The position numbers were made by a program, and so were the translations under genes. The notes under the pieces are model-generated. The model was given only the letters and a program-made list of their open reading frames with translations, was not told the DNA's origin and did not search any database. Shown piece after piece: positions 35,762-53,206 of a DNA stretch of 64,000 nt. How positions within the stretch are numbered: position 1 is the first letter of the stretch; every line of letters begins with the position of its first letter. The DNA comes from Modestobacter sp. VKM Ac-2977 (lineage in GTDB: Bacteria > Actinomycetota > Actinomycetes > Mycobacteriales > Geodermatophilaceae), in assembly GCF_026968045.1 (NCBI RefSeq), contig NZ_JAPVBQ010000002.1:732933-796932 (forward strand), in the 5' to 3' direction.

Positions 35762-36815
35762 GGGCACGCCGGCGCTGCCCGAGGTCCCCGGCGTGCTCAC
35801 CGCCGACCAGGTGCGCCGGACCGTGGCGGCGATCGCCGCCGAGCAGTCCGCCGACGGCGCCCTGCCGTGGTTCCGCGGTGGGCAGCTGGACGCCTGGGAC
35901 TCCGTCGAGGCGGCGATGGCGCTCGACGTCGGCGGGGAGCACGACCGGGCACGCGCCGCCTACGACTGGCTGGCCGGGCGGCAGCGCGCCGACGGCTCCT
36001 GGGCCGCCGAGTACCGGGACGGCGCCGTCGTCGCCCCGGCGATGGAGAGCAACCACGCGGGCTACCTCGCCGTCGGGGCGTGGCACTCCTGGCTGTGCAC
36101 CGGCGACGCCGAGGTGGTCGACCGGTTGTGGCCCACCGTGCGCCGGGCGCTGGACCTCGTCACGACGATGCAGCTGGCCACCGGGGCGATCAGCTGGGCG
36201 CTGCGCCCGGACGGGACGCCGGACGACACGGCCCTGCTCACCGGGAACGCGAGCCTGTTCCAGGCGCTGCGCGCCGGGATCGCCCTGGCCGACCTGGTCG
36301 GCGCGGCCCGGCCGGACTGGGAGCTGGCCGCCGCCGACCTCGGCCGGGCACTGCGGCACCAGCCCGCTGCGTTCGCCGACCGGTCGCGGTACTCGATGGA
36401 CTGGTACTACCCGGTGCTGGCCGGCGCGCTCACCGGTCCGGCGGCCGAGGCGCGGCTGTCCGCCGGGTGGGACACCTTCGTCGTCCCCGGGCTCGGCGTG
36501 CGGTGCGTCGCCGACCGGCCCTGGGTGACCGGCGCAGAGACCTGCGAGCTGGCGCTGGCGCTCGCCGCCGCCGGCCGGCCGGCCGACGCGACGGAGCAGC
36601 TGGCCGCGATGCAGCACCTGCGGGCCGAGGACGGCTCGTACTGGACCGGCCTGGTCTACGCCGACGACGCCCGCTGGCCGGTCGAGCGCACCACCTGGAC
36701 GGCGGCCGCCGTGGTGCTGGCCGCGGACGCCATCGCCGGCACCGGCCCGGCCGCCGCACTGTTCGCCGACCCGACTGCGCTGGACGGCGCCGCGGTGACG
36801 GAGGTCCTGGGTTGA
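35754..36815 (+). CDS. alpha/alpha-toroid protein (prenyltransferase/terpenoid-cyclase-like fold)
   Basis: The 353-residue protein has repeated Trp/Asp/Gly helix-pair units (LPWFRGGQLDAWDSVEAAMAL, WLAGRQRADGSW, MESNHAGYLAVGAWH, SMDWYYPVLAGAL, HLRAEDGSYWTG). These are typical of (alpha/alpha)6 toroids shared by prenyltransferase beta-like, squalene-cyclase-like and six-hairpin glycosidase proteins. I find no DxDD cyclase motif. The context (glycosyl- and methyltransferases, 8-base overlap with the preceding gene) suggests a role on a glycan or its lipid carrier. Activity is unknown. Confidence 0.65.
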   Translation: MPEGTPALPEVPGVLTADQVRRTVAAIAAEQSADGALPWFRGGQLDAWDSVEAAMALDVGGEHDRARAAYDWLAGRQRADGSWAAEYRDGAVVAPAMESNHAGYLAVGAWHSWLCTGDAEVVDRLWPTVRRALDLVTTMQLATGAISWALRPDGTPDDTALLTGNASLFQALRAGIALADLVGAARPDWELAAADLGRALRHQPAAFADRSRYSMDWYYPVLAGALTGPAAEARLSAGWDTFVVPGLGVRCVADRPWVTGAETCELALALAAAGRPADATEQLAAMQHLRAEDGSYWTGLVYADDARWPVERTTWTAAAVVLAADAIAGTGPAAALFADPTALDGAAVTEVLG

Positions 36816-36832
36816 CGCTCCGACCGGTCGGG

Positions 36833-36838
36833 CACGAT
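36833..36838 (+). promoter_or_regulatory. -10-like CACGAT before the GT2 pair
   Basis: CACGAT is followed by six bases and GTG 36845; TTGACG at 36812-36817 could be a -35, though the spacer is only 15. The two GT2 genes may therefore also be transcribed separately. Confidence 0.35.
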
Positions 36839-36844
36839 CACCCG

Positions 36845-37696
36845 GTGCGCACAGAGCCCAGGACCTCGGCGGTGACCTGCGTGGTGGCCAGCCGCAACCG
36901 CCGCGACGACCTCCTGGCCAGCCTGCCCCGGCACGAGGCCCCGGTGGTGCTGGTCGACAACGCCTCGACCGACGACACGGTGGCCGCGGTGCGGGCCGCG
37001 CACCCGGAGGTGACCGTCGTCCCGCTGGACCGCAACACCGGCGCCGTCGCCCGCACGCTCGGCGTCGCCCGCGCCGGTACGCCCTTCGTCGCCTTCACCG
37101 ACGACGACTCCTGGTGGGCGCCCGGCGACCTGGCGCGCGGGGTGGAGATCATGCGCGCGCACCCGCGCCTGGGGTTGCTGGCCGCCCGGATCCTGGTGGG
37201 CGACGCCGAGGAGCTCGACCCGGTCTGCACCGAGATGGCCGACAGTCCGCTGGGCAGCGAGCCCGACCTGCCCGGCCCGTCGCTGCTCGGCTTCGTCGCC
37301 TGCGCCGCGCTGGTGCGGACCGAGGCGTTCACCGCGGTCGGCGGGTTCGACCGGGTCGTCCGCTTCCCCGGCGAGGAGGAGCGGCTGGCGCTGGACCTCG
37401 CAGCGGCCGGCTGGGGCCTGGCCTACGTCGACGAGGTCACCGTGCACCACCACCCCTCCACCCACCGGGAGACCAGCACCGCCCGGCAGGCGGGCATCTG
37501 GCGCAGCCGCGTGCTCACCGCACTCATGCGCTACCCGCTGCGCGACGTCGCCGGCCAGCTGGTCCGGACCGCGCGCGCCGGCCGTCCGGGCTGGCGGGGA
37601 CTCGCCGGGGCGGTCCCCCGGGTCCCGGCCGCCCTGCGCAACCGGCGGGTGCTCCCCCGGCACGTGATGGCCGGGGTCCGGGAGCTCGCGGCATGA
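36845..37696 (+). CDS. GT2-type glycosyltransferase (first of a pair)
   Basis: The 283-residue GT-A enzyme has VVASRNRRDDLLASL, the nucleotide-binding VDNASTDDT, the metal-binding FTDDDSWW (DxD), and a catalytic-region motif GGFDRVVRFPGEEERLALDLAAAGW. Inverting transfer from an NDP-sugar is expected; the acceptor is unknown. Its stop overlaps the next GT2 gene by ATGA. The two are clear paralogues with matching DDDxWW and GGF motifs, so they may add successive similar sugars. Confidence 0.83.
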   Translation: MRTEPRTSAVTCVVASRNRRDDLLASLPRHEAPVVLVDNASTDDTVAAVRAAHPEVTVVPLDRNTGAVARTLGVARAGTPFVAFTDDDSWWAPGDLARGVEIMRAHPRLGLLAARILVGDAEELDPVCTEMADSPLGSEPDLPGPSLLGFVACAALVRTEAFTAVGGFDRVVRFPGEEERLALDLAAAGWGLAYVDEVTVHHHPSTHRETSTARQAGIWRSRVLTALMRYPLRDVAGQLVRTARAGRPGWRGLAGAVPRVPAALRNRRVLPRHVMAGVRELAA

Positions 37697-38628
37697 TGAG
37701 CGAGCCGACCGGACCGGTGGCCGCGGACAGCGGCCGGGACCTCCGCGTCGCCGTCGTCGTCATCACCCACGACCGCCGGGACGAGCTGTTGCTGGCGCTG
37801 TCCCGGCTGCACGAACTGCCCGAGCAGCCGCACGTGGTCGTCGTGGACAACGGCTCGACCGACGGCACCGCCGACGCGGTGCGCACCCAGCACGCCTGGG
37901 TCGAGCTGATCGCCAGCCCGGAGAACCTGGGTGCGGTCGGCCGCAACCTGGGCGTGGCCCGGCTGGACACCCCGTACGTCGCCTTCTGCGACGACGACAC
38001 GTGGTGGGACCCGGGCTCGCTGCGCACCGCGGCCGACGCGCTGGACGCCCACCCGCGGCTGGCCGTGGTCACCGCCCGGATCCTGGTCGAGCCTGGCGGT
38101 GTCGAGGACCCGATCGTCGCCGAGCTGCGCGACTCCCCCGTGGTCGGCGCCGACTGGCTGCCCGGACCTGCGTTGGGCAGTTTCCTGGCCGGTGCCAGCG
38201 TGCTGCGCCGGGAGGCCTTCACCGAGGTCGGCGGCTTCTCCGAGCGCCTGTGGCTCGGGGGTGAGGAGGAGCTGATGGCCGGGGACCTGGCCGCGGCCGG
38301 CTGGGAGCTCTGCTACCTGTCCACGATCGCGATCCACCACCAGGCCAGCACCGCCCGCGACCCGCACAAACGGCGGCAGGACGGCATCCGCAACACGCTG
38401 TGGACGACGTGGCTGCGCCGCCCGTTCCGGCCCGCACTGCGACGGACCGTGCACCTGCTGCGCACCGTCCCCCGCGACCGGGTCACCGCCCGGGGGCTGC
38501 TCGCTGCGGCCCGCGGCCTGCCCTGGGTGTTGCGCGAGCGGCGGGTGCTGCCCCCGCACGCGGAGGCCCGGTTCGCTGCCCTGGAACACGCCCAGCGCGG
38601 TTCCTCCGCCCGCCGTTACGTGAGCTGA
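37693..38628 (+). CDS. GT2-type glycosyltransferase (second of a pair)
   Basis: The 311-residue paralogue of the preceding protein has VVVITHDRRDELL, VDNGSTDGT, the DxD motif FCDDDTWWDPG and GGFSERLWLGGEEELMAGDLAAAGW. A basic C-terminal region of about 80 residues (LRRPFRPALRRTVHLLRT) may contact the membrane. ATG 37693 overlaps the previous stop; a second ATG follows directly. It is the last gene of the glycan-type cluster. Confidence 0.83.
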   Translation: MMSEPTGPVAADSGRDLRVAVVVITHDRRDELLLALSRLHELPEQPHVVVVDNGSTDGTADAVRTQHAWVELIASPENLGAVGRNLGVARLDTPYVAFCDDDTWWDPGSLRTAADALDAHPRLAVVTARILVEPGGVEDPIVAELRDSPVVGADWLPGPALGSFLAGASVLRREAFTEVGGFSERLWLGGEEELMAGDLAAAGWELCYLSTIAIHHQASTARDPHKRRQDGIRNTLWTTWLRRPFRPALRRTVHLLRTVPRDRVTARGLLAAARGLPWVLRERRVLPPHAEARFAALEHAQRGSSARRYVS

Positions 38629-38647
38629 GCCCGGCCGGGGTCGCCAC

Positions 38648-39256
38648 TCAGCCCTGCTGCGCTCGGGCGGGACCGGACTCCCGGTTCGCCGGGGAGCTGC
38701 GACGGGAGACGAGGTAGAGCGCGGTCAGCACGCCGGTCAGGACGACCACGACCACCGCCGTCCTCGCCCCCGACCACGACGGCATGGCCGGGTCGACGAC
38801 GTCGGTGGACTGCAGCCCGTCGGCCAGCGCCACCACCGCGCCGGACCAGTCCTCGTCCACGACGGCGGGCTCGACGTCCTCGTCGATCAGGGCCTCGACG
38901 GCGCCCGGCTGCAGGGTGGACTCGTCCCCGATCCACCACTCGTACGCGGCCTCGTCCGTCGCGACGGTCAGCAGGACCTCCTCGGGGCCGAGCTCGGACC
39001 GCATCGCGGTCAGCTCGGCCCAGTCGGCGTCGTCGGTCTCGCCGTCGAAGGAGGGCACGAAGACCGCGGACAGGGCGATGCCGGCTTCGCGGCGGAGCTC
39101 GGCCACGGCGCGTTCGGCTGCTCCCACATCCGCGCCGAGCACGCCGGCCTCGTCCGTGATCGCTGCGTCGATCACCATCGGCTGCTCGGCCATCGCGATC
39201 CCTGCGGGCAACGACCCGGTGATCAGGACGACCAACAACGCGATACGCGTGCGCAC
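38648..39256 (-). CDS. exported TPM-like domain protein with C-terminal membrane anchor
   Basis: The 202-residue protein has a signal peptide (IALLVVLITGSLPAGIAMA). A TPM/TLP18.3-like domain of about 120 residues follows (VLGADVGAAERAVAELRREAGIALSAVFVPSFDG, VLLTVATDEAAYEWW), and one membrane segment near 170-190 precedes a short basic tail. TPM-domain proteins are membrane-anchored and mostly of unknown function. GTG 39256 follows AGAGGAAG by five bases. The family call rests on the overall pattern only. Confidence 0.65.
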   Translation of the reverse strand: MRTRIALLVVLITGSLPAGIAMAEQPMVIDAAITDEAGVLGADVGAAERAVAELRREAGIALSAVFVPSFDGETDDADWAELTAMRSELGPEEVLLTVATDEAAYEWWIGDESTLQPGAVEALIDEDVEPAVVDEDWSGAVVALADGLQSTDVVDPAMPSWSGARTAVVVVVLTGVLTALYLVSRRSSPANRESGPARAQQG

Positions 39257-39479
39257 ACACACTTCCTCTGGATCGATGGAACGGACAACCGGGTGGACGA
39301 CGGCTCTCTGGTGACTGCGGCCGGAGTGGTCGTTCTCCTGTCGGCGAGCATGATCGACTGCGGAGTGCCCCGCAGCGAATGGTCGTCCATTCCGCGAACA
39401 CGCGGAGGGTCCCGACAATTGCGTCAGTGATCGGTGACGACCAGTGAGCGAGAAGTTCCGGGAATGTGTTCGCGCTCAC

Positions 39480-40214
39480 TCAGCGCCGGATTGACCCTTT
39501 CCGGTTCACCGCGGCCAGATCGGTGGATGAACGGACCACGGGGACGCCCGCCCCCGCGACGGCCACCAACGCCCGTCGCGCCGGGTCGCACCAGTCGACC
39601 AGGCGCAGGCCGTGGTACCGACTCACCGACCGTCCGGCCCGGTCGTGGCGCTCGACCACCCGGGAGAGGTCGATCCGGTGCGCCCCGTCCAGCGTCGCCG
39701 CTCCGGCCTTCACCAGACACTCCTTGCGGACCCAGTGGCGGAGGGCCAGCAGGGACGGGTCCGCCGCAGACCGCAACTGCCACTGCTCGGCCGGGGCGAG
39801 CCCGGGGAACCCGCCGGCCCCGGACCCGTTCGGCGGCAGCGTCTCGACGTCCACCCCGACCGGGTGCCACGACGCAGCCGCGACGACGGCACCACGACTG
39901 TGCGCCCAGCTGACGTGGACGTCCGGGGAGCCCGCGATCGAGGGGCGCCCGTGCCCCACCGCCCCACAGTCGGCGCACCACTGGTGCACGGCCAGGTCGG
40001 CCACCGGCCGTCCGCTGAGCGCAGCAGCGCACCGGCGGACCAGCAGGTGCGCGGCGACGTAGGCAGCCCGGTCCGCCGGGTCTCGCAGGGACGCGCTGCG
40101 CTGTCGTTCGGTGGCGCCGAGCAGGCCGACGTCGGTGTCGGCGAGGACCTCGGCGGGGGTGGCCACCGCGACCAGGGGTCGCCGGGCAGGCGCCCAGCGC
40201 ATGCGTGCGAACAC
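39480..40214 (-). CDS. Sfp-type 4'-phosphopantetheinyl transferase
   Basis: The 244-residue protein has the PPTase Mg-site motif PVGVDVETL (G120-E124) and the second motif WVRKECLVKAG (W161, K164-E165, K169), with VSWAHSRG before them. It transfers phosphopantetheine from CoA to a carrier-protein Ser. It is divergent from the single-module Pls-type synthetase, whose carrier Ser (S587) is the obvious substrate. GTG 40214 is chosen because a strong GGAAGGAGGG lies just upstream; the frame is open to ATG 40280. The distance between the divergent starts is 246 bp. Confidence 0.88.
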   Translation of the reverse strand: MFARMRWAPARRPLVAVATPAEVLADTDVGLLGATERQRSASLRDPADRAAYVAAHLLVRRCAAALSGRPVADLAVHQWCADCGAVGHGRPSIAGSPDVHVSWAHSRGAVVAAASWHPVGVDVETLPPNGSGAGGFPGLAPAEQWQLRSAADPSLLALRHWVRKECLVKAGAATLDGAHRIDLSRVVERHDRAGRSVSRYHGLRLVDWCDPARRALVAVAGAGVPVVRSSTDLAAVNRKGSIRR

Positions 40215-40280
40215 CGGGCCCTCCTTCCGGCACCTCGTCGACGCGACGGCGCGTGCGGTGACTGTCCGAACACGATCCAT

Positions 40281-40380
40281 TGCAGAAAGAATTGATCATT
40301 GAGTTAGTGTTTGGCGCATGTGAACGCTCGGAAATTAACTGCGCACAGTGAGTCATGAACGCCAAAACAAATGTGAGTTC
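40281..40380. promoter_or_regulatory. AT-rich divergent control region between PPTase and Pls genes
   Basis: These 100 bases contain only 43 G+C, against over 70 percent in the flanking genes. TGTTTGGCG at 40308-40316 faces CGCCAAAACA at 40360-40369 as an inverted repeat, and a near-palindromic GTGAGTTCAC lies at about 40374-40383. It is the likely site of regulation of both genes. Confidence 0.5.
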
Positions 40381-40415
40381 ACCCGGAATTAGTGGCAGGA
40401 CCCTGTGCTTCTCCC

Positions 40416-40421
40416 TAGCGT
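40416..40421 (+). promoter_or_regulatory. -10 element TAGCGT of the Pls gene
   Basis: TAGCGT lies 39 bases before ATG 40461, giving a short leader with a GAGAGCGAG ribosome-binding region. The -35 is poor, which fits a need for an activator. Confidence 0.45.
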
Positions 40422-40460
40422 CGGACAAGATCCTTGATTGTCAACTTTGAGAGCGAGTCG

Positions 40461-43400
40461 ATGGCGACGGAGAGCGACAGCCGGGAGTTCATCCCAGGCT
40501 TCACCACCCCCGGGGACCCCGGACTCGACACCGCGGACCGACGATTCTCCTTCTCGGAGAACGTCGCCGGGGCTCCGTCCCGACCGCAGCACGACACGAC
40601 CCGGCTGTCGCAGTACTTCGAGCGGACCTCCGACGAGCGGCCCTCGGCGACCGCGCTGGAGTGCGACGGCGAGCGCCTGAGCTACACCGATCTCGACCAG
40701 CGGGCCAACCGGCTGGCGAACCACCTGCTCGGCCTCGGTGTCCGGTCCGGCGTCCGGGTCGGCATCCTGCTGGACCGCTCGGTCAACACCTACGTCGCCC
40801 TGCTCGCGGTGACGAAGACCGAGGCGACGTTCGTCCCGATCGACCCGGCGGCGCCGGCGGACCGGGTGCAGTTCATCGCCGAGGACTCCGACCTCGGCCT
40901 GGTGGTCACGACCTCCTCCTTCACCGCGACCTGCAGCGGGCTGCCCTGCCCGCCGTTGTTCCTGGACGAGCTGGGCGGCGACCTCGCGGCCGCCCCGAGC
41001 TGGCGCCCCGAACTGGAGACCGGCGGCGACCCGGTCGCCTACATCATCTACACCTCGGGCTCCAGCGGCCGCCCCAAGGGCGTCGAGATCGCCCAGTCGA
41101 GCATCTGCAACTTCATCGGCATCGTGCCGGTCCTGTACGGCGTCGAGCCGACCGACCGGGTCTACCAGGGCATGACGATCGCGTTCGACTTCTCCATCGA
41201 GGAGATCTGGCCGACCTGGGCGGTGGGCGCGACCCTGGTCGCCGGGCCCACCGACGGGCGCCGGGTGGGCTCGGGGCTGGCCGACTTCCTGGCCGAGCAG
41301 GAGATCACGATGATCTACTGCGTCCCCACCGTGCTGGCCACCCTCGACCGCACCCTCCCGCTGATCCGCACGGTGAACGTCGGCGGCGAGGCCTGCCCGC
41401 GGGAGCTCGTCGACCGCTGGGGTCCGGGCCGCCGCATCCTGAACACCTACGGCCCGACGGAGACCACGGTCACCTGCACGATGGCCGAGCTGTACCCCGG
41501 CAAGCCGGTGACGATCGGGCGCCCGCTGCCGACCTACCGCGTCACCCTGCTGGACGACGAGCGCCGGCCGGTGGCCAACGGCGAGGTCGGCGAGATCTGC
41601 GTCGGCGGCCCCGGGGTGGCCCTCGGGTACGTCAACCGTCCCGACCTGACCGCCGACCGCTTCCTCCCCGACCCGAACGGCTTCCCCGGTGAGCGGCTGT
41701 ACCGCACCGGCGACCTGGGGCGTTTCCTGCCCGACGGCGAGCTGGAGTACCTCGGCCGCGCCGACAGCGAGGTCAAGGTCCGTGGCCACCGCGTCGACCT
41801 CCAGGAGATCGAGGGGATGCTGCTGCAGCACGACCGGGTCACCGCCGCGGTCGTCACGCTGCTGGAGGCGCCGGAGACCGGCGGAGAGCTCGCCGCCTAC
41901 GTGATCCCCCGCCCTGGGGACGATGCCGAGGGCCTCGTCGTCGAGCTGCACGACCTGGTCCTGGAGCAGCTGCCGCCCTACATGGTCCCGGCGTTCCTCG
42001 ACGTCGTCTCGACCATCCCGATGCTGCCGAGCGGCAAGGCCGACCGGAAGGCGCTGCCGGAGCCGCAGGGCCCGCGCCTGATGCGGGACACCGGGGCCCA
42101 CGTGCCCCCGGACTCCCCCACCGAGGCGTGGGTGGCCGGGATCTGGGAAGAAGCGTTCGGTCTGCCTGGCGGATCGGTGTCGGTGGAGGCCAACTTCTTC
42201 GACGCGCTCGGTGGCCACTCGCTGCTCGCCGCGCGGATCATCTCCACGATGCGCTCCAGCGACCTGGGCGCCGGGCTGTCCATCCTCGAGCTCTACCGGC
42301 ACCCGACGGTCCGTTCGCTCGCCGCGCACCTGGAGGAGGACGCCCGGGCCGGTGAGGCCATCGCCGAGCCGCACCTGCGCCGCCCCGTGCAGTCCTCCCG
42401 CCGCCGGGTCGCCGCCTTCGGCTCGGCCCAGCTCGCCACCTTCTACGCCATCGTCCTGCTCTTCCTGTTCCCGGCTGCGGTGGTCTACGCGCTGAACGAC
42501 GGCGAGCCCTCGGTCACCCTCGTCCTCCAGCTGGCCCTCGCGCTGCCGGCGTTCTTCCTCGTCGTCCGCTGGGTGCTGCCGGTCGTCGGCTCCCGGCTGC
42601 TGTCCCGGGGCCTGCAACCCGGTGACCACCCGCTGTGGAGCTGGACCCACCTGCGGGTCTGGACGATCCAGAAGCTGATGGTGATCTCCCCGCTCACGGT
42701 CCTGAGCGGATCACCGTGGGCAGCCACCTACCTGCGCCTCGCCGGAGCACGGATCGACGACGACTGCCACATCGGGACGTCGGAGATCAGCCTCCCCGCG
42801 ATGCTGGACGTGGGCCCCGGGGCGACCCTCGGCTACGGCACCCAGTTGCACGGCCACCGCATCGCCGACGGCGTCCTCTCCCTCGGGGTCGTCTCCGTGG
42901 GTGCCGGTGCGACCCTCGGCTCGCAGTCCCTGCTGGAGGCCGGCTCGGCGGTCGAGGACCGCGGCGTGCTGCGTGAGCAGTCGCTGCTGCCCGCCGGCCA
43001 GGTCGTCCCCGCCGGGGCTACCTGGGCCGGGTCACCGGCCCAGGCCTCGACCGAGCCGACCGACCCGGTGCTCGCGCTGATGACCGGCTGCACCGCGGCA
43101 CCGACCACCTGGTCGCGTCAGCTGCGGACCGGTTTCGCCGCCGGCATCGGGCTCCTGGAGCTGCTGCCCTTCCTCGTGCTGCTGCCGGTGGTGGCGCTGG
43201 TCTGGTGGGTGCTGCTCACCTTCGGCCTCGGCGCCGCCGTCCTCGCCACCGCGCTGTCGGGGCCGGTCTTCGTGGCAGCCTCCTGCGCGCTCATCCTGGG
43301 CTCCCGTCGGCTCGCCCTGACGGAGACGCCGCCGGGGGTGCACCACGTGCGCTCCAAGCTCGGGCTGGAGAAGTGGCTGGGCGACAAGCTCCTCGAGATG

Positions 43401-44615
43401 AGCCTGATGCTCAACAACAGCATGTACGCGACGCTGTACACCTCCATCTGGCTGCGGGCCATGGGCACCAAGGTCGGTCGTGGCGCCGAGGTCTCCACGA
43501 TCGCCAACATCGACCCCGACCTGCTCACCCTCGGCGAGGGCAGCTTCGTCGCCGACATGGCCAGCGTCGGCAGCGCCACCTACGCCAACGGGCACGTGGC
43601 CTTCCAGGTCACCGAGGTCGGCGCGCGCGCCTTCGTCGGCAACGCCGCCTTCATCCCCTCCGGTTCACACCTGGGCGAGGGCTCGCTGATCGGCGTGCGC
43701 AGCGTGCCGCCGACCACCGGCGTCGAGGCGAACAGCTCCTGGCTGGGCTCCCCGCCGATCAACCTGCCGCGCCGGGAGATGTTCGAGGAGTACACCGAGG
43801 CGGAGACCTTCACGCCCAGCCGCCGCCGGGTCCGCGCTCGGTACGCCATCGAGTTCCTGCGGATCGTGCTGCCCAGCTCGATCCTCGCGTTGGCGATGTT
43901 CGCCACGCTGTACGGGGTCTCCCTGCTCGCGGCGAACCAGAACGCGTTCGTCACCGTGGTGGTGGCACCGCTGATCGCGCTGCTGTCCAGCCTCACCGTC
44001 GTGGTGGCGGTGGCCCTGCTCAAGTGGGCCATGGTCGGCCGGTACAAGCCGCGGGTCCGTCCCCTGTGGAGCGGGTTCGTGCGCCGCACCGAGTTCGTCA
44101 CCGGCATCTACGAGGCGGCCGCCGTCCCGGCGCTGCTGACCTGGCTGACCGGCACCCCGTTGCTCGGCCCGCTGCTGCGGCTCTACGGGGCGAAGATCGG
44201 CCGGCGGACGCTGATCGACACCACCTACCTCACCGAGTTCGACCTGGTGACACTGGGCGACGACGTCTCCGTGGGCACCAACGCCTCGCTGCAGACCCAC
44301 CTGTTCGAGGACCGGGTGATGAAGATGGACCACGTCATCATCCGGGACCGGGCCAGCGTCGGGGACAAGTCCGTGGTCCTCTACGGCTCCACCGTCGAGG
44401 AGGACGCCACGATCGCCGACCTCTCCCTGGTGATGAAGGGCGAGGTGCTGCCCGCCGGCACCGCGTGGAGCGGCATCCCCGCCCAGAAGGTCGGCCGCGC
44501 GCCGGCCAGCACGCTGCCGGTGCGGGACGACCCGTCCCTCGACAGCCCGGCGGTCGACAACCCGACCACCGAGAGCCGTCAGCTCAGCACCGCGTCGAAC
44601 AGCCGGGAGGTGTGA
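40461..44615 (+). CDS. Pls/PosA-type single-module NRPS (epsilon-poly-lysine synthetase-like)
   Basis: The 1384-residue protein has an adenylation domain (about 60-545) with core motifs IIYTSGSSGRPKG, FDFS (D243), NTYGPTET, YRTGDL and LPSGKADRKAL. A carrier domain (GGHS, S587) follows. Then come three pairs of membrane segments (about 655-710, 895-945, 1135-1195), with hexapeptide-repeat-like soluble domains after each pair. There is no condensation or thioesterase domain. This layout is that of poly-amino-acid synthetases such as S. albulus Pls, which makes epsilon-poly-L-lysine, and of family TIGR02353. The product here is unknown; E247 next to the FDFS motif (hand-aligned position 239) favours a cationic amino acid. 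TTG 40434 is an alternative start. Confidence 0.88.
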   Translation: MATESDSREFIPGFTTPGDPGLDTADRRFSFSENVAGAPSRPQHDTTRLSQYFERTSDERPSATALECDGERLSYTDLDQRANRLANHLLGLGVRSGVRVGILLDRSVNTYVALLAVTKTEATFVPIDPAAPADRVQFIAEDSDLGLVVTTSSFTATCSGLPCPPLFLDELGGDLAAAPSWRPELETGGDPVAYIIYTSGSSGRPKGVEIAQSSICNFIGIVPVLYGVEPTDRVYQGMTIAFDFSIEEIWPTWAVGATLVAGPTDGRRVGSGLADFLAEQEITMIYCVPTVLATLDRTLPLIRTVNVGGEACPRELVDRWGPGRRILNTYGPTETTVTCTMAELYPGKPVTIGRPLPTYRVTLLDDERRPVANGEVGEICVGGPGVALGYVNRPDLTADRFLPDPNGFPGERLYRTGDLGRFLPDGELEYLGRADSEVKVRGHRVDLQEIEGMLLQHDRVTAAVVTLLEAPETGGELAAYVIPRPGDDAEGLVVELHDLVLEQLPPYMVPAFLDVVSTIPMLPSGKADRKALPEPQGPRLMRDTGAHVPPDSPTEAWVAGIWEEAFGLPGGSVSVEANFFDALGGHSLLAARIISTMRSSDLGAGLSILELYRHPTVRSLAAHLEEDARAGEAIAEPHLRRPVQSSRRRVAAFGSAQLATFYAIVLLFLFPAAVVYALNDGEPSVTLVLQLALALPAFFLVVRWVLPVVGSRLLSRGLQPGDHPLWSWTHLRVWTIQKLMVISPLTVLSGSPWAATYLRLAGARIDDDCHIGTSEISLPAMLDVGPGATLGYGTQLHGHRIADGVLSLGVVSVGAGATLGSQSLLEAGSAVEDRGVLREQSLLPAGQVVPAGATWAGSPAQASTEPTDPVLALMTGCTAAPTTWSRQLRTGFAAGIGLLELLPFLVLLPVVALVWWVLLTFGLGAAVLATALSGPVFVAASCALILGSRRLALTETPPGVHHVRSKLGLEKWLGDKLLEMSLMLNNSMYATLYTSIWLRAMGTKVGRGAEVSTIANIDPDLLTLGEGSFVADMASVGSATYANGHVAFQVTEVGARAFVGNAAFIPSGSHLGEGSLIGVRSVPPTTGVEANSSWLGSPPINLPRREMFEEYTEAETFTPSRRRVRARYAIEFLRIVLPSSILALAMFATLYGVSLLAANQNAFVTVVVAPLIALLSSLTVVVAVALLKWAMVGRYKPRVRPLWSGFVRRTEFVTGIYEAAAVPALLTWLTGTPLLGPLLRLYGAKIGRRTLIDTTYLTEFDLVTLGDDVSVGTNASLQTHLFEDRVMKMDHVIIRDRASVGDKSVVLYGSTVEEDATIADLSLVMKGEVLPAGTAWSGIPAQKVGRAPASTLPVRDDPSLDSPAVDNPTTESRQLSTASNSREV

Positions 44616-44617
44616 CC

Positions 44618-45970
44618 GTGTCGCAGACCAGCGCGCACCAGAACATCGTGGCCCCGCTGCCGCCGGAGCTCCCGACCGCGACGGCAGCGGCCCTGCCGCA
44701 CAGCTGTGCCCCCACGCAGCCGGGTGACGTCGCCGGCACCCCGGCCGAGGGCACCCCCGCGGGTCCGTCGGCCGCGGCGCCCCGGCGCCCGAAGGCGCGC
44801 CTGGTCGGGATCGACGCCGCCCGCGGCGTCGCCCTGGTGGGCATGATGTCGGTCCACCTGATCCCCGCGGCCACCACCGACGGGGACGTGTCGTGGGCCT
44901 GGCTGCTGTCCAACGGCAAGGCCTCGGCGTTGTTCGCCCTGCTCGCCGGCGTCGGCATCGCCTTCTCCACCGGTGGGCGCCGGCCGCCGAGTGGCCTGGC
45001 CTGGCGGGCCGGCGCACTGTCGCTGCTGACCCGGGCCGTGATCATCGCGGCGATCGGCCTCGCCCTCGGCTACGTCGTCGGCACCGGCGACGCCGCGGTG
45101 ATCCTCACCTACTACGGCGTGCTGTTCGCCCTGGCCATCCCGTTCCTGCGGCTGTCCACCCGCGGCCTGGTGGTGGCGGCCTCCGTTGCGGCGCTCGTCA
45201 TGCCGCTGGTCAGCTACGGGCTGCGCAGTGAGATGGCGCCAGTCGCCTGGGCCAACCCGACGCTGACCGACCTGGTCACCGACCCGCTGGGGCTGCTGTC
45301 GCGGCTGACCCTCACCGGGGTGTTCCCCGCCCTGGTCTGGATCGCCTACCTGCTGGCCGGCATGGCAGTGGGTCGGGCGGTGCTCGCCTCGCGGCGGGTC
45401 GTCGGCCAGCTCACCCTGATCGGACTGGGACTCGCGCTGGCGGCCAGCCTGCTGTCCATGCTGCTGCTGACCGTCGGCGGTCTGGGCAGCCGCCTGCGCG
45501 TGGACGCGCTGCAGACCATGGAGTTCGAGCTCTACCAGGACACCCTGACCTGGGGGCCTTCCGGGGCGACGCCGACCAACAGCCCGTGGTGGCTGGCGGC
45601 CATGGCACCGCACAGCGGCAGCCCGCTCGACCTGGCCTTCACCATCGGGGTGGCGCTGGCGGTGCTGGGCGCCTGCCTGCTGCTCGGCCGGGGTCTGCAG
45701 CCGCTGCTGCGCCCGTTGGCCGCCGCCGGCAGCATGACGCTGACCCTCTACAGCGTCCACCTGCTGCTGGTCGCCGCGCCGCTGCCCCGCGGCGTCCTCA
45801 ACCTGGTCGTGCAGGTCGTCGTGCTGGTGGCCTTCGCCCTGGTCTGGAACCGGAGCCACCTGCGCGGGCCGCTGGAGGAGCTCGTCTGGCAGGTCACCGA
45901 CGCCGTGCGACGGAAGGTGCTGGGGTCCTCGGGCGCCCACCGGGCGCCGGTCGCCACGACCGGCAGCTGA
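44618..45970 (+). CDS. multi-spanning acyltransferase-like membrane protein (DUF418/HGSNAT-like)
   Basis: The 450-residue protein has a Pro/Ala-rich cytosolic N-terminus (about 65 residues). About ten membrane segments then begin with RLVGIDAARGVALVGMMSVH. This opening, with an early Asp and a membrane His, is shared by HGSNAT-type N-acetyltransferases and DUF418/DUF1624 proteins. GTG 44618 follows GGGAGG and lies 2 bp after the Pls stop, so co-expression is nearly certain. It could acetylate, export or immunise against the Pls product; this is inference from context. Confidence 0.72.
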   Translation: MSQTSAHQNIVAPLPPELPTATAAALPHSCAPTQPGDVAGTPAEGTPAGPSAAAPRRPKARLVGIDAARGVALVGMMSVHLIPAATTDGDVSWAWLLSNGKASALFALLAGVGIAFSTGGRRPPSGLAWRAGALSLLTRAVIIAAIGLALGYVVGTGDAAVILTYYGVLFALAIPFLRLSTRGLVVAASVAALVMPLVSYGLRSEMAPVAWANPTLTDLVTDPLGLLSRLTLTGVFPALVWIAYLLAGMAVGRAVLASRRVVGQLTLIGLGLALAASLLSMLLLTVGGLGSRLRVDALQTMEFELYQDTLTWGPSGATPTNSPWWLAAMAPHSGSPLDLAFTIGVALAVLGACLLLGRGLQPLLRPLAAAGSMTLTLYSVHLLLVAAPLPRGVLNLVVQVVVLVAFALVWNRSHLRGPLEELVWQVTDAVRRKVLGSSGAHRAPVATTGS

Positions 45971-45972
45971 TC

Positions 45973-46692
45973 GTGTTCGGGCGGGGCACGTTCGGGCGGG
46001 GCGGTGACCGGCGCCTGGCGCTGGTCTACCGGGGCCCGGCCTCCACGGCTGGGTGCCCCGAGGCGGTGGCCGGTGCGCTGGCGAGGAGCCGGTGGGACCT
46101 CGACGTCCGGTTCGTCGGGCCCAAGGAGCGCCTCGCGGTGGAGCCGGCGGTGCTCGCCTCCGCCGTCCTGTACGCCCAGCCCGGCGGCGGCGAGCTCGAC
46201 AAGGCCTGGCGCAAACTCCGCCGCCAGGCCCCGGCGGTCCGTGACTACGTCGCCGGCGGGGGCCGCTACCTGGGCTTCTGCCTGGGCGGTTACCTCGCCG
46301 GGGAGACCCCCGGTTTCGGGCTCCTGCCCGGGGACACCGACCAGTTCATCACCTCCCCGGGGGCGTGGCCGACGCACACCGACGACACGGTGGCGACCGT
46401 GATCTGGGACGGCCGCCGCCGAGAGGTGTTCTTCCAGGACGGCGCCTGGTTCGACCTCGACCCCACCCGGGGGCCGGCCGAGGTGCTGGCCACCTACGAG
46501 AACGGGCTGCCCGCCGCGGTGGTCGCGCCCTTCGGAGCCGGTGCGGTCGGCGTCGTGGGGCCGCATCCGGAGGCGACGCCGGACTGGTTCACCGACTGCG
46601 GCCTGCCCGTACCGGCGGACCTGCGGGCCGACCTCACCCAGGACCTCGTCGACCGGGTGATGCAGCTCGGTCAGGTCGCCCCGGCTCACTGA
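45973..46692 (+). CDS. BPL_N-domain, glutamine-amidotransferase-like protein
   Basis: The 239-residue protein resembles the biotin-protein-ligase N-terminal (BPL_N) class-I amidotransferase fold. It has LYAQPGGGELDKAWR, a nucleophile-elbow FCLGGYLAG (Cys) and a late GPHPEA with the His position. It lacks any biotin ligase catalytic domain. It starts 2 bp after the preceding gene, so it is the third gene of the Pls operon. Its reaction is unknown; hydrolysis or amide chemistry on the peptide product is possible but speculative. A long hairpin follows. Confidence 0.7.
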   Translation: MFGRGTFGRGGDRRLALVYRGPASTAGCPEAVAGALARSRWDLDVRFVGPKERLAVEPAVLASAVLYAQPGGGELDKAWRKLRRQAPAVRDYVAGGGRYLGFCLGGYLAGETPGFGLLPGDTDQFITSPGAWPTHTDDTVATVIWDGRRREVFFQDGAWFDLDPTRGPAEVLATYENGLPAAVVAPFGAGAVGVVGPHPEATPDWFTDCGLPVPADLRADLTQDLVDRVMQLGQVAPAH

Positions 46693-46708
46693 GCACGCCC
46701 AGCACAGC

Positions 46709-46754
46709 ACACAGGCCACCGCGGGGAGCCCGAGCTCCCTGCGGTGGCCTGTGT
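46709..46754. terminator. 21-bp hairpin ending the Pls operon
   Basis: Bases 46709-46729 pair with 46734-46754 over 21 bp with one G-T pair around a CCGA loop. It is the strongest hairpin in the window and lies between convergent genes, so it probably acts both ways. Confidence 0.75.
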
Positions 46755-46780
46755 CGTGCGGCGTGGCCGGAGCTGCCGGC

Positions 46781-47968
46781 TCAGCCCTCGTCGAGGAAGG
46801 CGGCCACGATGGCGCCGAACTGCCCGTTCCGGCTGTGGCCGACCCCGGCGGGGGCGACCAGTCGGGTGTCGAGGCCCTGGGCCGCGTACCACCGCTCCCC
46901 GGCCTGCGCACCGTAGGGACCGGAGAGCGCGTTGAACCCGCCGTTGCCCCCGGTGTCGTTGGCCCCGGTGTCCCAGCGCAGGACGACCTTGCCCTTCACG
47001 TCGGCAGGGATGCTGACGCGACCCGCCGGTGCGCCACCGCCACCGATCGCGATGACACCACCGCCGCCGGACCACAGGCCCGGGTGGGCGGGGAAGACGA
47101 AGCGGGTCGCCGCCTGCGCACCCGAGGAGTAGCCAGAGAACCACAGCTCACCGGCGCCGTACTGGGCCTTCGTCTCGGCGATCAGCGCTGCGAGGTACTT
47201 CGCGTACCCGGCGGCGTCCCCCCGCTCCCAGCACTTGCAGGAGCGGTTCGGGCTGAACGGCGCCACGAGCACCATGTTGCGCGCCTTGGCCACGGCAGCC
47301 AGCCCGTTCGGCCCGCCGATCGCGTAGGACTGGGTCGGGTTCTCGACGCCGTACTCGCCGGTGCCGTCGGCGTACACCAGCAGGCCGATCGGCTTCGCCG
47401 GATTGATGCCCTCGGCGAAGACCCGGTAGTCGGCGGTGTACCCCGCGGCACTGAAGGACGTCGTCCGGTTGGTCAACGGCACGGTGGGAGCCGTGTTCGT
47501 CGGGGCGGTGACGGCCGGTGCCGGGGCGGGTGCCGGGGCGGGTGCCGGAGCGGGGGCGGGAGCCGGGGCGGGGGCGGGAGCCGGGGCCGGAGCCGGGGCC
47601 GGAGCCGGGGCCGGCGCCGGAGCCGGGGCGGGAGCCGGAGCCGGAGCCGGAGCGGTTGCCGTGGGCGCCGGCTTCTGGGTGCCCCGACGGGCCCGCTCGC
47701 TGTGCCGCGCGAGCTTCTCGGCCCGGGCGGCCTCGAGCTGGACCGCGGTCTCCGCCTGCGGCTGGACGTTGCTCACCGGTGACGCGACGGGCGAGGTGTC
47801 AGCGACGCTGGTGGCGCCGAACGTGGCGGTCACGCAGAGGAAGGCAGCGGCGATGCCCGTCCGCGCACGCCGGCCGCGGCGGGTGGAGAGGGCGGACAGG
47901 AAGCGGCGGCCATGGCCACTCCGGGTGTGACGTCTGGACAAGAAGAGACCCCTCCGAGCGTCCGTCAC
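46781..47968 (-). CDS. secreted alpha/beta hydrolase with Pro-Ala linker
   Basis: The 395-residue protein has a basic N-terminus and signal segment (TGIAAAFLCVTATFGATSV). A Gln/Glu/Ala helix follows, then a (Pro-Ala)n linker of about 50 residues. The C-terminal alpha/beta-hydrolase domain has the nucleophile elbow GYSSGAQAA and a late His in GVGHSRNGQFG. The fold resembles secreted esterases or PHB-depolymerase-like proteins; the substrate is unknown. The PA linker suggests passage through the cell wall. GTG 47968 is the start of the open frame; later starts before the signal segment cannot be excluded. Confidence 0.75.
   Translation of the reverse strand: MTDARRGLFLSRRHTRSGHGRRFLSALSTRRGRRARTGIAAAFLCVTATFGATSVADTSPVASPVSNVQPQAETAVQLEAARAEKLARHSERARRGTQKPAPTATAPAPAPAPAPAPAPAPAPAPAPAPAPAPAPAPAPAPAPAPAPAPAPAVTAPTNTAPTVPLTNRTTSFSAAGYTADYRVFAEGINPAKPIGLLVYADGTGEYGVENPTQSYAIGGPNGLAAVAKARNMVLVAPFSPNRSCKCWERGDAAGYAKYLAALIAETKAQYGAGELWFSGYSSGAQAATRFVFPAHPGLWSGGGGVIAIGGGGAPAGRVSIPADVKGKVVLRWDTGANDTGGNGGFNALSGPYGAQAGERWYAAQGLDTRLVAPAGVGHSRNGQFGAIVAAFLDEG
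47517..47660 (-). repeat. low-complexity Pro-Ala coding repeat
   Basis: A run built from GGAGCCGGGGCC-like 6- and 12-base units encodes the alternating Pro-Ala linker of the hydrolase. Slippage could change its length. Confidence 0.8.
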
Positions 47969-48204
47969 CGGGGTGCGGACGGTGTGCGGTGATTACGGAA
48001 CTGATCGTTACACGCACTTTCTGCATCCGTAAGGTCACGCTCGGTCCACAGTTGACTCGTTCGTCACAGCAGTAACAGCCGCCTCGCGAGTGTGGTTTCC
48101 CGGCCCGCCGGGACTGCCGAGGACTCGTGGGTGGCCCGAGTTGCACACAACCGAGACAATGGGAGGCGACGGGACGATCCCGTCGTCCATCTCGAAGGGC
48201 AGTG

Positions 48205-49644
48205 ATGCGCGCGGGTCGTCGTCGGGCCGCGGCCGCCGCGCTCACCGGAGCCGTGCTGCTCGGTGGCTGTTCCACGAGCGACTCCCCCGACCCCGCGCCC
48301 CAGCCCACGTCCGCCCCGGAGGCCGCAGGCTGGCCCGGACCCCGGGCCGACCGGCCGGTGGTCGACCTGCGCTTCGACGTCGCCGAGGACCTGGAGACGA
48401 TCGCCGGTGCGGAACGGGTGGTCTTCACCCCTGACCTCGACACCTGCGTGCTGGTCTTCCGGTCCTGGCCCAACAAGCCGGCCACCGCACGGGCGGGCAG
48501 CGGGCTGACCGTGTCCGAGGTCCGGGTCGACGGCGAACCGGCCGAGGTGCGCGACGTGCCGGCCGGAGCCCCGGAGAGCGCGCCCGCCGGCACGCTGCAG
48601 GAGGTGCCGTTGACCACGTGCGCGGAGGCCGGCGAGGAGATCATCGTCGACCTCGAGTTCGAGGTCGAGCTCGGCCCCGACGTCAACGAGCGGGTGGGCA
48701 CCGCCGACGACGTCGACGTCGCCTGGTTCGCCACCGCCTTCCCGTTGCTCGCCTGGGAGCGCGGGCGGGGGTGGGACCGCAGCCCCGCCGTCGCCGTCGC
48801 CGGCGAGATGACGGTGAGCGAGGACTTCGAGCTGGCCTCGCTGGAAGTGGTCGCGGACTCCCGGTACGAGGTGCTCGGCACCGGCCAGGCGGTCGGCACC
48901 TCCGACGGGCCCGGCGACACCACGGTCCACGAGTTCACCGCCCCGTCCGTCCGGGACGTCGCGGTGACCGTCGGGGAGCTCGACGTGCAGTCGGCGGAGG
49001 TCGGCGGCGTCCGGGTGCACGTGGGCCTGGACGAGGGCGTGGACAAGGCCACCCCGCAGGAGTGGCTGGCCCAGCTCGAGGAGTCGATGGACGCCCTCGT
49101 CGCGTTGCTCGGTCCCTTCCCCTATGACGACCTCTGGGTCTCGGTGCTGTCCAGCCAGACGAGCGGCATCGAGTTCCCCGGGGCGATCCAGTTCGGCGAC
49201 GCCGACCCCGACTTCCGCCGGGCGCTGGTGACCCACGAACTGGCGCACATGTGGTTCTACGGCCTGGTCGGCAACAACCAGGCCGTGCACCCCTGGCTCG
49301 ACGAGTCGTTCGCGACCTTCGTGCAGATGGTCGTCCACGGAGAGGGCTCGGCCAGCATGGCCGACCTGCCGGGGTCCCGCCGGCACGGCGTGGGCGAGCC
49401 GATCCAGTACTGGGAGCAGTTCCGCCGGCCGAGCGCCACGTACTACGACACCGTCTACACCGTCGGCGGGGCGACCCTGGTCGCCGCCCGGAACCGGGTG
49501 GGCGCCGAGGCATTCGACGCCGCGCTGCAGGACTACCTCCGCGCGAACGCCTGGTCGATCGCCACCCCGGACGACGTCCAGGAGGCCTTCGCCGAGCTGC
49601 CCGAGGTGCTCACCGAGCTGGAACGGGTCGGCGCGCTCCCCTGA
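48205..49644 (+). CDS. M1 family metallopeptidase lipoprotein
   Basis: The 479-residue protein has a lipoprotein signal (ALTGAVLLGGC, modified Cys at about 21), an M1-type N-terminal beta domain and a gluzincin catalytic domain. The domain has H344-E345-x-x-H348 and, 18 residues later, E367 in WLDESFATF. It is a membrane-anchored, Zn-dependent aminopeptidase facing outside. The C-terminal helical domain is short compared with full-length M1 enzymes. ATG 48205 follows GAAGGGCAG. A GACAAT -10 is at 48156-48161. Confidence 0.85.
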   Translation: MRAGRRRAAAAALTGAVLLGGCSTSDSPDPAPQPTSAPEAAGWPGPRADRPVVDLRFDVAEDLETIAGAERVVFTPDLDTCVLVFRSWPNKPATARAGSGLTVSEVRVDGEPAEVRDVPAGAPESAPAGTLQEVPLTTCAEAGEEIIVDLEFEVELGPDVNERVGTADDVDVAWFATAFPLLAWERGRGWDRSPAVAVAGEMTVSEDFELASLEVVADSRYEVLGTGQAVGTSDGPGDTTVHEFTAPSVRDVAVTVGELDVQSAEVGGVRVHVGLDEGVDKATPQEWLAQLEESMDALVALLGPFPYDDLWVSVLSSQTSGIEFPGAIQFGDADPDFRRALVTHELAHMWFYGLVGNNQAVHPWLDESFATFVQMVVHGEGSASMADLPGSRRHGVGEPIQYWEQFRRPSATYYDTVYTVGGATLVAARNRVGAEAFDAALQDYLRANAWSIATPDDVQEAFAELPEVLTELERVGALP

Positions 49645-49657
49645 CCGGCGCCGTGGC

Positions 49658-49990
49658 TCAGTGGGCGCAGGCGATGCAGGTGCGGGCCTGCGGGCGGGCA
49701 GCCAGCCGCTCCGGGGCGATCGGCTGCCCGCAGTCGGCGCACCGGCCGTAGTCCCCGGTCTCCGCGCGGGCCAGGGCGTCGTCGACGTCGGCCAGCCGGC
49801 GGCGGGCCTGGTCCAGCAGCGCCGCGACCTGCTGGCGCTCGAAGGCGATGGTCGCACCCTCCGGGTCGTGCTCGTCGTCGGCATTGGACGACCGGGACGC
49901 GGCGACCACCTCGTCGAACTCCCGGGTCAGCGCGTCGATCTGCGCGAGCGTCTCGGCCCGGGCGCGGGTCAACTCGTCGGTCACCGTCAT
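49658..49990 (-). CDS. DksA/TraR-type zinc-finger protein
   Basis: The 110-residue protein has an N-terminal coiled coil with DEHDPEGATIAFERQQVAALL and a C-terminal Cys4 zinc finger YGRCADCGQPI...ARTCIACA. Members bind the RNA polymerase secondary channel or are small regulators in actinobacteria. The coiled-coil tip lacks the DxxDxA signature of E. coli DksA, so the effect on polymerase is uncertain. ATG 49990 is the start of the conserved part. Confidence 0.83.
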   Translation of the reverse strand: MTVTDELTRARAETLAQIDALTREFDEVVAASRSSNADDEHDPEGATIAFERQQVAALLDQARRRLADVDDALARAETGDYGRCADCGQPIAPERLAARPQARTCIACAH

Positions 49991-50033
49991 CGCGCCATCG
50001 TCGCGCACCGTGGCCCGTCGGGACGCGGCCCCG

Positions 50034-50657
50034 TCAGGACGACGTGCGCTGGAGCAGCCGCAGCGAGCCGGTGCCGGGCAGCTCGGTGAACTCCCCCGAC
50101 CCCAGCACCCGCTGATAGACCCCGAACGGCGCCTGCCCGCCCTCGGCCGGGTCGGGGAAGACGTCGTGGATGGCCAGCGTGCCGCCGACGGCGAGCTTCG
50201 CCACCCAGGCGTCCTGGTCGCGGCGCGCGGACTCCTCGGTGTGGCTGCCGTCCAGGAACAGCAGGGCCAGCGGGGTCGACCACAGCGGTGCCAGCACCTC
50301 CGACCGGGTGACGACGGCGACCACGACGTCCTCTGCACCGGCGGCAGCGACGGTGCGCCGGAAGCCCGGGAGGGTGTCGATCCGCCCGACCAGCGGGTCG
50401 ACCAGCGACGGGTCGTGGTACTCCCAGCCGGGCTGGTGCTCCTCGGAGCCGCGGTGGTGGTCGACGGTGACCACCTGCCGGCCGGTCTCCCGGGCGGCGG
50501 CGGCCAGGTACAGCGCCGACTTGCCCAGCCAGCTGCCGATCTCCAGCAGCGGCCCGGGCACCTGCACCGCCTGCGCCGCGGCGTAGAGCGCCCGGCCCTC
50601 CTCCGGTGGCATGAAGCCGGGTGCGGCGGCCGCGGCGGCCAGCAGGTCGGAGGTCAT
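50034..50657 (-). CDS. class I SAM-dependent methyltransferase (Methyltransf_24-like)
   Basis: The 207-residue protein has LLEIGSWLGKSALYLAAAA (SAM motif I), VVTVDHHRGSEEHQPG (acidic motif), ALLFLDGSHTEESARRD and GGTLAIHDVFPDP, the pattern of Methyltransf_24/CmcI-like enzymes. The DGSHTEES and HDVFPD segments suggest a metal-assisted O-methyltransferase. ATG 50657 overlaps the stop of the upstream YibE/F gene by ATGA, so the two are coupled. The substrate is unknown. Confidence 0.8.
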   Translation of the reverse strand: MTSDLLAAAAAAPGFMPPEEGRALYAAAQAVQVPGPLLEIGSWLGKSALYLAAAARETGRQVVTVDHHRGSEEHQPGWEYHDPSLVDPLVGRIDTLPGFRRTVAAAGAEDVVVAVVTRSEVLAPLWSTPLALLFLDGSHTEESARRDQDAWVAKLAVGGTLAIHDVFPDPAEGGQAPFGVYQRVLGSGEFTELPGTGSLRLLQRTSS

Positions 50658-51928: not shown

Positions 51929-51934
51929 CCGGAC

Positions 51935-51940
51935 AGGCTA
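51935..51940 (-). promoter_or_regulatory. -10 element TAGCCT, leaderless YibE/F promoter
   Basis: On the minus strand TAGCCT is followed by six bases and GTG 51928. Confidence 0.5.
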
Positions 51941-52028
51941 GGTGGCCGGACGGCCGATCCACGGCCGGACGGCCGGACGGCGTCGCACCCGCCCCTCGCC
52001 TCCCGGGCGTCCCCCGCGGCGCCGCAGG

Positions 52029-53153: not shown

Positions 53154-53159
53154 CGGGCC

Positions 53160-53200
53160 AGTCTGGACCGCGCGCCGGCCGGGCGCCGCCTGCCTACAGT
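53160..53200. promoter_or_regulatory. back-to-back leaderless promoters
   Basis: CAGACT (minus strand, 53165-53160) serves the amidohydrolase and TACAGT (plus strand, 53195-53200) the SDR gene. Each is six bases from its start codon, and only 53 bp separate the two starts. Confidence 0.5.
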
Positions 53201-53206
53201 CGGGGC

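Follow-up and report, generated by a model that had tools for sequence, protein, structure and literature searches.

Conserved linkage of HGSNAT-type and BPL_N genes to a Pls/PosA-family synthetase in Modestobacter and its relatives

Described systems and the Modestobacter locus

The Pls synthetase of Streptomyces albulus, which makes epsilon-poly-L-lysine, combines an adenylation (A) and a carrier (T) domain with a membrane region (C1-C3), has no condensation or thioesterase domain, and has a peptidase gene, pldII, directly downstream. PosA of Acinetobacter baumannii makes delta-poly-L-ornithine. In the available part of PMC10522769, the natural polymers of this family number about seven, one of them of Dap-Dap units, and no acylated one is reported. 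A further comparator is a synthetase locus, L145, which is itself uncharacterised and in which dat and ask indicate a gamma-poly-diaminobutyrate (poly-Dab) context. The usual acceptors of transmembrane acyltransferases (TmAT superfamily: HGSNAT, AT3 and DUF418/YeiB) are carbohydrates, according to the available text of PMC12423673.

The locus studied here lies in a contig of Modestobacter, a soil actinobacterium, within an analysed stretch of 64,000 nucleotides (the window). The original prediction had described a four-gene set at 39480-46692, and this observation was confirmed. The synthetase, HGSNAT-type and BPL_N genes are co-directional and separated by 2-bp gaps, an Sfp-type phosphopantetheinyl transferase (PPTase) gene is divergent from them, and a 21-bp hairpin follows, all as had been described. 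The features, with window coordinates, are as follows.

38648-39418, minus strand: TPM-domain membrane protein (PF04536, 43.9 bits); upstream neighbour in 14 of the 29 clade loci described below
39480-40280, minus strand: Sfp-type 4'-phosphopantetheinyl transferase, divergent from the synthetase (PF01648, 26.3 bits, just over the cut-off of 25)
40281-40460, no strand: divergent intergenic region, read from the sequence, with one weak promoter-like match
40461-44615, plus strand: Pls/PosA-family synthetase, 1384 aa (TIGR02353, PF00501, PF13193, PF00550, PF00132)
40617-42038, plus strand: adenylation domain (Pfam; pocket code read from the sequence)
42129-42332, plus strand: carrier (T) domain with LGGHS, Ser587 (PF00550, 45.2 bits)
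42477-44483, plus strand: membrane polymerisation region with hexapeptide-repeat stretches, C1-C3 (TIGR02353 positions 26-695 of 695)
44618-45970, plus strand: predicted HGSNAT-type transmembrane acyltransferase (PF07786 HGSNAT_cat, 38.2 bits, cut-off 22)
44813-44857, plus strand: DxxRx10H motif, Asp66, Arg69 and His80 (alignment)
45973-46692, plus strand: BPL_N protein (PF09825, 48.8 bits, cut-off 24.2; covers only profile positions 4-98 of 283)
46709-46754, no strand: hairpin of 21 pairs with a loop of 4, lying between convergent genes
46781-47968, minus strand: exported hydrolase-like protein (GYSSG; one N-terminal hydrophobic segment)
48127-49644, plus strand: PldII-like M1 metallopeptidase lipoprotein (PF01433, 47.1 bits; LGGC lipobox; HELAH-x18-E, E393)

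The synthetase is a clear member of the Pls/PosA (CHPA synthetase) family, scoring 565.3 bits against TIGR02353 (cut-off 423.1). As predicted, it carries one A domain (AMP-binding, AMP-binding_C) and one T domain (PP-binding), and no condensation or thioesterase domain was found with Pfam at E 0.001. Its C1-C3 region gave gamma-carbonic-anhydrase/hexapeptide matches, and its hydropathy profile had three paired peaks (about residues 658/690, 901/936 and 1140/1170) and two marginal peaks (210-228 and 801-819). The 86-nt stretch containing the hairpin folded with a z-score of -7.0 against 200 shuffles; the hairpin was not scored as a terminator by a pattern scan requiring a T-run.

Linkage of the partner genes to the synthetase

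A sample of 396 genomes drawn from the host's order yielded 29 synthetases of the same clade. HGSNAT was downstream on the same strand in 27 of these 29 loci and BPL_N in 26; both were present in 26 and neither in two. Further clade loci outside the order sample had both partners in seven of nine cases. Neither gene was found at L144 or L172; an HGSNAT match in L144 was a shadow frame, an over-long frame overlapping the synthetase gene, and was discarded. The tight linkage of the two partners claimed earlier was supported and is conserved, and a chance neighbourhood was rejected on these counts. Neither finding named as counting against the original prediction, an ordinary condensation domain or a lack of conserved linkage, was obtained. 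Two gene orders (Pls-HGSNAT-BPL_N and Pls-BPL_N-HGSNAT) occur in several families, so the linkage has survived rearrangement. Partner-synthetase distance correlations gave r values of 0.93 and 0.93 (32 loci; 0 of 2000 permutations), with L176 omitted, its best HGSNAT match being a paralogue. Repeated loci were counted once (L135 with the polylysine-type L077, and L027 with L169). No description of this combination was found in the open-licence literature searched, in line with the original prediction.

In contrast, HGSNAT and BPL_N were absent from all 43 polylysine-type loci searched, of which 41 had a PldII-like M1 peptidase. Neither partner was present at the PosA locus L149 or at L145. HGSNAT adjoined two of ten split Pls systems. 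At a Sphingomonas PosA-like synthetase, a GNAT acetyltransferase gene overlapped the PPTase gene that follows the synthetase.

The recurrent set is larger than the four genes described earlier and includes a hydrolase-like gene and an M1 peptidase gene that had been overlooked. Homologues of the hydrolase-like protein were encoded close to the synthetase in 14 of the 29 clade loci, and also on three Rhodococcus plasmids. This protein matched no Pfam family and, judged by eye from its GYSSG motif, is a putative alpha/beta hydrolase. The PldII-like peptidase was present in 17 of the 29 loci. In the Modestobacter protein both HEXXH-x18-E and the LGGC lipobox, which indicates a location outside the membrane, are present, and polymer hydrolysis is its predicted activity. 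The PPTase, earlier called dedicated, adjoined the synthetase in 12 of the 15 loci compared; this did not hold in Georgenia, in genome G038 or in genome G004, where the locus meets a contig edge. In G004, HGSNAT and BPL_N lie at the contig end and a synthetase was not found, so this genome was excluded from every synthetase count.

Substrate pocket and partner proteins

The pocket code of the synthetase was DFEYNGTVT (residues 243, 244, 247, 286, 306, 308, 329, 337 and 338). The same extraction applied to the A. baumannii row gave DMEHNGTVS, which is the published PosA code (PMC10522769, available part). Asp243 and Glu247 occupy positions 1 and 3, which in PosA bind the alpha-amine and the side-chain amine. 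The two codes share D, E, N, G, T and V, and both end in a hydroxyl residue, Thr here and Ser in PosA. The PosA code was nevertheless not matched, as three of nine positions differ (Phe, Tyr and Thr against Met, His and Ser), and identity to the A. baumannii row in the C-terminal region was 34%. The polylysine-type code DAESIGTVV differs from the one found here, and epsilon-polylysine was rejected as the main reading; that product, named in the original prediction, is unlikely. Across the clade, the codes of 36 of 38 loci began with DFEY and ended with GTVT, with N, L or V in between; the other two loci had DFECLGTVT. In quick tree searches run without bootstrap, the clade fell beside the poly-Dab-context type (dat-ask) and PosA was further away; the nearest outside relative was L145, which has Phe at position 2 but the code DFECLSAVT. 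By its letters, DFEYNGTVT reads as intermediate between the PosA and poly-Dab types.

Phe at pocket position 2 is proposed, in the available text of PMC10522769, to accompany substrates of 3-4 carbons, and so speaks for diaminobutyrate (Dab) or diaminopropionate (Dap). This genome, however, had no Dat match at E 1e-50, no SbnA over cut-off and no SbnB match at 1e-10. In a set of 59 genomes, SbnA was over cut-off in none of the 12 clade genomes and Dat in one (G038). When dat and ask of L145 were compared with stretches of 14-20 kb around 38 clade loci, no ask and a single 32-bit dat fragment (L168) were found; both were also unmatched in the window at 34001-54000. Since the known Dab/Dap pathway genes were not found in this genome, L-ornithine is our best guess for the substrate. 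A DDAH-type gene lies inside the operon in 8 of the 29 clade loci, and none at the Modestobacter locus. Their best relatives of solved structure are AgrE and ArgZ, both arginine dihydrolases, and ArgZ converts arginine to ornithine (PMC9952445, available part). The DDAH-type genes scored under the NCBIfam cut-offs for both dimethylargininase and arginine dihydrolase, and were nearer to dimethylargininase.

The HGSNAT-type protein resembles the TmAT superfamily in its Pfam match and its DxxRx10H motif, which lies in the first core helix; Asp66, Arg69, His80 and His332 were invariant in 24 aligned rows. The motif is described in the available parts of PMC12423673 and PMC7448272, and the latter reports it as essential in an AT3 enzyme. 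Unlike other TmAT enzymes, this one is linked to a poly-amino-acid synthetase, and its proposed acceptor is an amino-acid polymer. Paralogues of the same subtype exist outside any Pls locus, one of them adjoining a TPM gene in this genome.

The 'amidotransferase-like' label given earlier to the BPL_N protein holds for its fold, and an activity is predicted only. A structure model and fold match gave a class I glutamine-amidotransferase fold, and Cys103, His198 and Glu200 were invariant in 17 aligned rows, consistent with the Cys and His-x-Glu of those enzymes; unlike them, the protein has no synthase partner domain. The best VIA matches were glutaminases, while the first Foldseek rows were GH42 galactosidases and not amidotransferases, which makes the fold a poor guide to the reaction. 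The Pfam name points to a likeness of the family to the N-terminus of yeast biotin ligase. That BPL_N is exclusive to Pls loci was rejected, as relatives were found beside TerD in a Streptomyces and on plasmids of Agrobacterium, Burkholderia and R. ruber. With relatives of both partners outside Pls loci, neither family is exclusive to the polymer.

A possible modified polymer and its alternatives

The two linked partners of the synthetase, one a membrane acyltransferase and the other hydrolase-like, suggest that the polymer is chemically modified. An exported and modified poly(diamino acid) as the product of the locus is a real possibility, somewhat short of an even chance, in which the product, its acylation and the BPL_N reaction are all inferred. 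The synthetase would join units of one basic diamino acid, most likely L-ornithine, through isopeptide bonds, so that each residue keeps one free amine. The HGSNAT-type protein might then move acyl groups from cytosolic acyl-CoA across the membrane onto the free amines of the emerging polymer, by analogy with human HGSNAT acting on glucosamine. In the cytosol, the BPL_N protein would most likely act as an amidase or isopeptidase on intracellular chains, to trim, release or detoxify them, and the M1 lipoprotein outside may do what PldII does and break down polymer close to the cell. More specifically, we tentatively propose a new class of natural poly(diamino acid), delta-poly-ornithine or near kin, acylated on its amines by the dedicated transmembrane acyltransferase during export, with HGSNAT, BPL_N and the outer-surface peptidase setting charge and chain length; this full version is possible rather than probable.

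It is rather unlikely that the product is plain poly-diaminobutyrate or poly-diaminopropionate and that the two partners serve self-protection, by acylation and intracellular hydrolysis of stray polycation, instead of tailoring. Phe at position 2 and the dat-ask context of the nearest outside relative would fit such a polymer, and PldII beside pls has been postulated to be self-protective (PMC8117764, available part). Against this stand the lack of Dat, SbnA and SbnB matches in the genome at the thresholds given above and the near absence of dat and ask from the clade stretches compared. Polylysine-type loci, moreover, make do with a peptidase (41/43) and have HGSNAT or BPL_N in 0/43.

The partners might also act on the cell envelope or on a different metabolite, being simply co-transcribed with the synthetase, as the occurrence of both families elsewhere (the TerD neighbour, the plasmids and the TPM-linked paralogue) would allow; linkage in 26/29 loci, with either gene order and in several families, the HGSNAT genes beside split Pls systems and the Sphingomonas GNAT gene make this unlikely. 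Quite improbable, finally, is a role for BPL_N as a trans-acting chain-release thioesterase or terminal amidase replacing the missing thioesterase domain. Its invariant Cys, its position at a 2-bp gap or overlap and the lack of any noted signal or membrane segment are compatible with that role, and the available text of PMC4668381 calls the release step of the PDAP enzyme unresolved; yet 43 polylysine-type loci manage without BPL_N, and its glutaminase and galactosidase matches give little guidance on the reaction.

If the modified-polymer reading is true, TmAT enzymes, known for carbohydrates and, in TraX, for a pilin protein, would extend to a nonribosomal amino-acid polymer, and a family without acylated members reported in the literature examined would gain one. 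BPL_N, a family known by fold only, would become testable on a defined substrate, and Modestobacter, Geodermatophilus and Rhodococcus are indicated as culturable hosts with clear knock-out targets. From the conservation of an acyltransferase partner it would follow that bacteria adjust the charge of the polymer once it has been made, with a bearing on its antimicrobial activity, on how toxic it is to the producer, and on its use as a carrier or preservative.

Gene content of the locus

The window spans positions 732933-796932 of contig C9 of Modestobacter sp. VKM Ac-2977 (G000), and its locus was read as follows:

40461-44615: synthetase with AMP-binding, AMP-binding_C and PP-binding domains and a terminal TIGR02353 domain (565 bits, cut-off 423)
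Divergent from the synthetase: PPTase gene
3' of the synthetase, at 2-bp gaps: HGSNAT_cat and BPL_N genes
Between these and the two genes that follow: 21-bp hairpin
Beyond the hairpin, convergent: exported hydrolase-like gene
Beyond the hairpin: M1 peptidase lipoprotein gene (HELAH-x18-E)

The membrane part of the synthetase matched hexapeptide-repeat proteins. For PosA, the delta-poly-L-ornithine synthetase of Acinetobacter baumannii, passages of PMC10522769 describe AlphaFold and RoseTTAFold models in which six bent membrane helices carry three left-handed beta-helices. The BPL_N protein was 97% identical to that of M. caceresii and 90-92% identical to those of three Modestobacter strains.

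A TPM-domain gene is located near the locus (38648-39418). TPM and HGSNAT genes were also noted together in L072, L074 and L176: a TPM gene adjoins an HGSNAT paralogue elsewhere in this genome and in genome G014, and L176 has a second HGSNAT beyond the TPM gene of its own locus. Upstream (35867-38628) are two family-2 glycosyltransferase-like genes, one weakly MftF-like (mycofactocin; 67.6 bits, cut-off 280).

Conservation of the synthetase, HGSNAT and BPL_N genes

The operon type is genuine and conserved, and varies on a kind already known; its gene set, the families and motifs of its proteins, the conserved linkage and the pocket code are all established. Among 59 relatives (E 1e-10), BPL_N was matched in 13 genomes, HGSNAT in 18 and the synthetase C-terminal region in 23. 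By coordinates, the HGSNAT and BPL_N pair adjoined the synthetase in all 12 genomes where the latter had at least 49% identity; in the thirteenth BPL_N genome, G004, the pair is at a contig end. When 396 genomes were sampled evenly from the order, BPL_N was matched at 38 places in 31 genomes (E 1e-40) and the synthetase at 32 places in 31 genomes (E 1e-100). A synthetase was at most 3.3 kb from 33 of the 38 BPL_N places, the others being in G004 (contig end), G488, G499, G707 and G760. For the 29 synthetase places of at least 49% identity, same-strand downstream partners were HGSNAT in 27, BPL_N in 26 and both in 26; two (G707, G760) had neither and one (G705, contig C13) had HGSNAT alone. The latter locus, L168, holds that genome's second clade synthetase, with no BPL_N in the fetched stretch. 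The genomes of the three synthetase places at 36-46% identity had no BPL_N match. Nine additional clade loci included seven with both partners (L029, L068, L069, Georgenia L030, Rhodococcus L141, L142 and L150) and two with neither (S. cattleyicolor L144, and L172), giving both partners in 33/38.

The order was Pls-HGSNAT-BPL_N in the Geodermatophilaceae loci and in that of Georgenia. Rhodococcus and other families showed Pls-BPL_N-HGSNAT; here BPL_N was often present twice, and an M1 or DDAH-type gene sometimes intervened. In L166 and L167 the M1 peptidase gene is between BPL_N and HGSNAT, which argues that the peptidase belongs to the system. Pairwise distances over 32 loci correlated at 0.93 for synthetase-HGSNAT, 0.93 for synthetase-BPL_N and 0.86 for the third pair, values reached by none of 2000 permutations, shared descent accounting for part of the correlation.

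Public annotation of the Rhodococcus loci already carries the TIGR02353, HGSNAT and BPL_N labels, and no description of the joint system was found in the open-licence literature searched.

Comparison with other synthetase loci

In 43 polylysine-type loci (pocket code DAESIGTVV, one DAESVGTVV), an M1 peptidase was close downstream in 41, the arrangement published for pls with pldII in parts of PMC8117764 and PMC9223678. The fetched stretches of these 43 loci had no HGSNAT or BPL_N match at E 1e-3. In a phylum draw of 396 genomes the BPL_N profile matched three, and only the window's genome had it next to a synthetase; outside the clade, BPL_N was also found alone, without a synthetase.

Ten split Pls systems (L076 in G024, L075 in G012, L080, L091-L095, L103 and L117) divide the synthetase between a T-TIGR02353 protein and, after it, an A-T protein whose code is DIWQST..; HGSNAT was present in 2/10, directly upstream as HGSNAT_cat in L092 and L095, and BPL_N in 0/10. 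An SbnA gene over cut-off adjoins the system in G024, suggesting diaminopropionate (Dap) as building block. On a Sphingomonas plasmid (L148), PPTase and GNAT acetyltransferase genes come after the gene for a PosA-like synthetase (DMEHNGTVT), with 4-bp overlaps; the GNAT gene is a further acyltransferase gene beside a Pls/PosA-family synthetase.

Substrate and product

The clade pocket code was DFEY(N/L/V)GTVT in 36/38 loci and DFECLGTVT in two. The same script returned DMEHNGTVS, the published PosA code, for an A. baumannii sequence. A Streptomyces locus that carries dat and ask, the context published for poly-diaminobutyrate (poly-Dab), gave DFECLSAVT. In the full-length tree the clade neighbours this Streptomyces sequence (SH-aLRT 100), PosA being more distant. 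Sections of PMC10522769 link short substrates to Phe at pocket position 2. In G000 no Dat (E 1e-50), no SbnA over cut-off and no SbnB were found, so Dab and Dap are disfavoured at these thresholds. Ornithine is favoured by Thr and Thr at the equivalents of PosA Thr304 and Ser313, together with a DDAH/arginine-dihydrolase-like gene at variable position within the Pls-BPL_N-HGSNAT operon in 8/29 loci (L071, L157-L160, L163-L165). Among solved structures, AgrE and ArgZ best matched the one example compared; NCBIfam models ranked dimethylargininase first in 6/6 scanned examples (212-224 bits, under cut-off 300) and arginine dihydrolase second (130-160 bits, under cut-off 450). Ornithine is the tentative choice, with a chance somewhat short of even; Dab appears unlikely, a further substrate slightly more so, and Dap improbable.

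Export and acylation at this locus are putative, as is the reaction of BPL_N, and the peptidase may act in self-protection. The product of the locus is plausibly a modified polymer, as the original prediction proposed.
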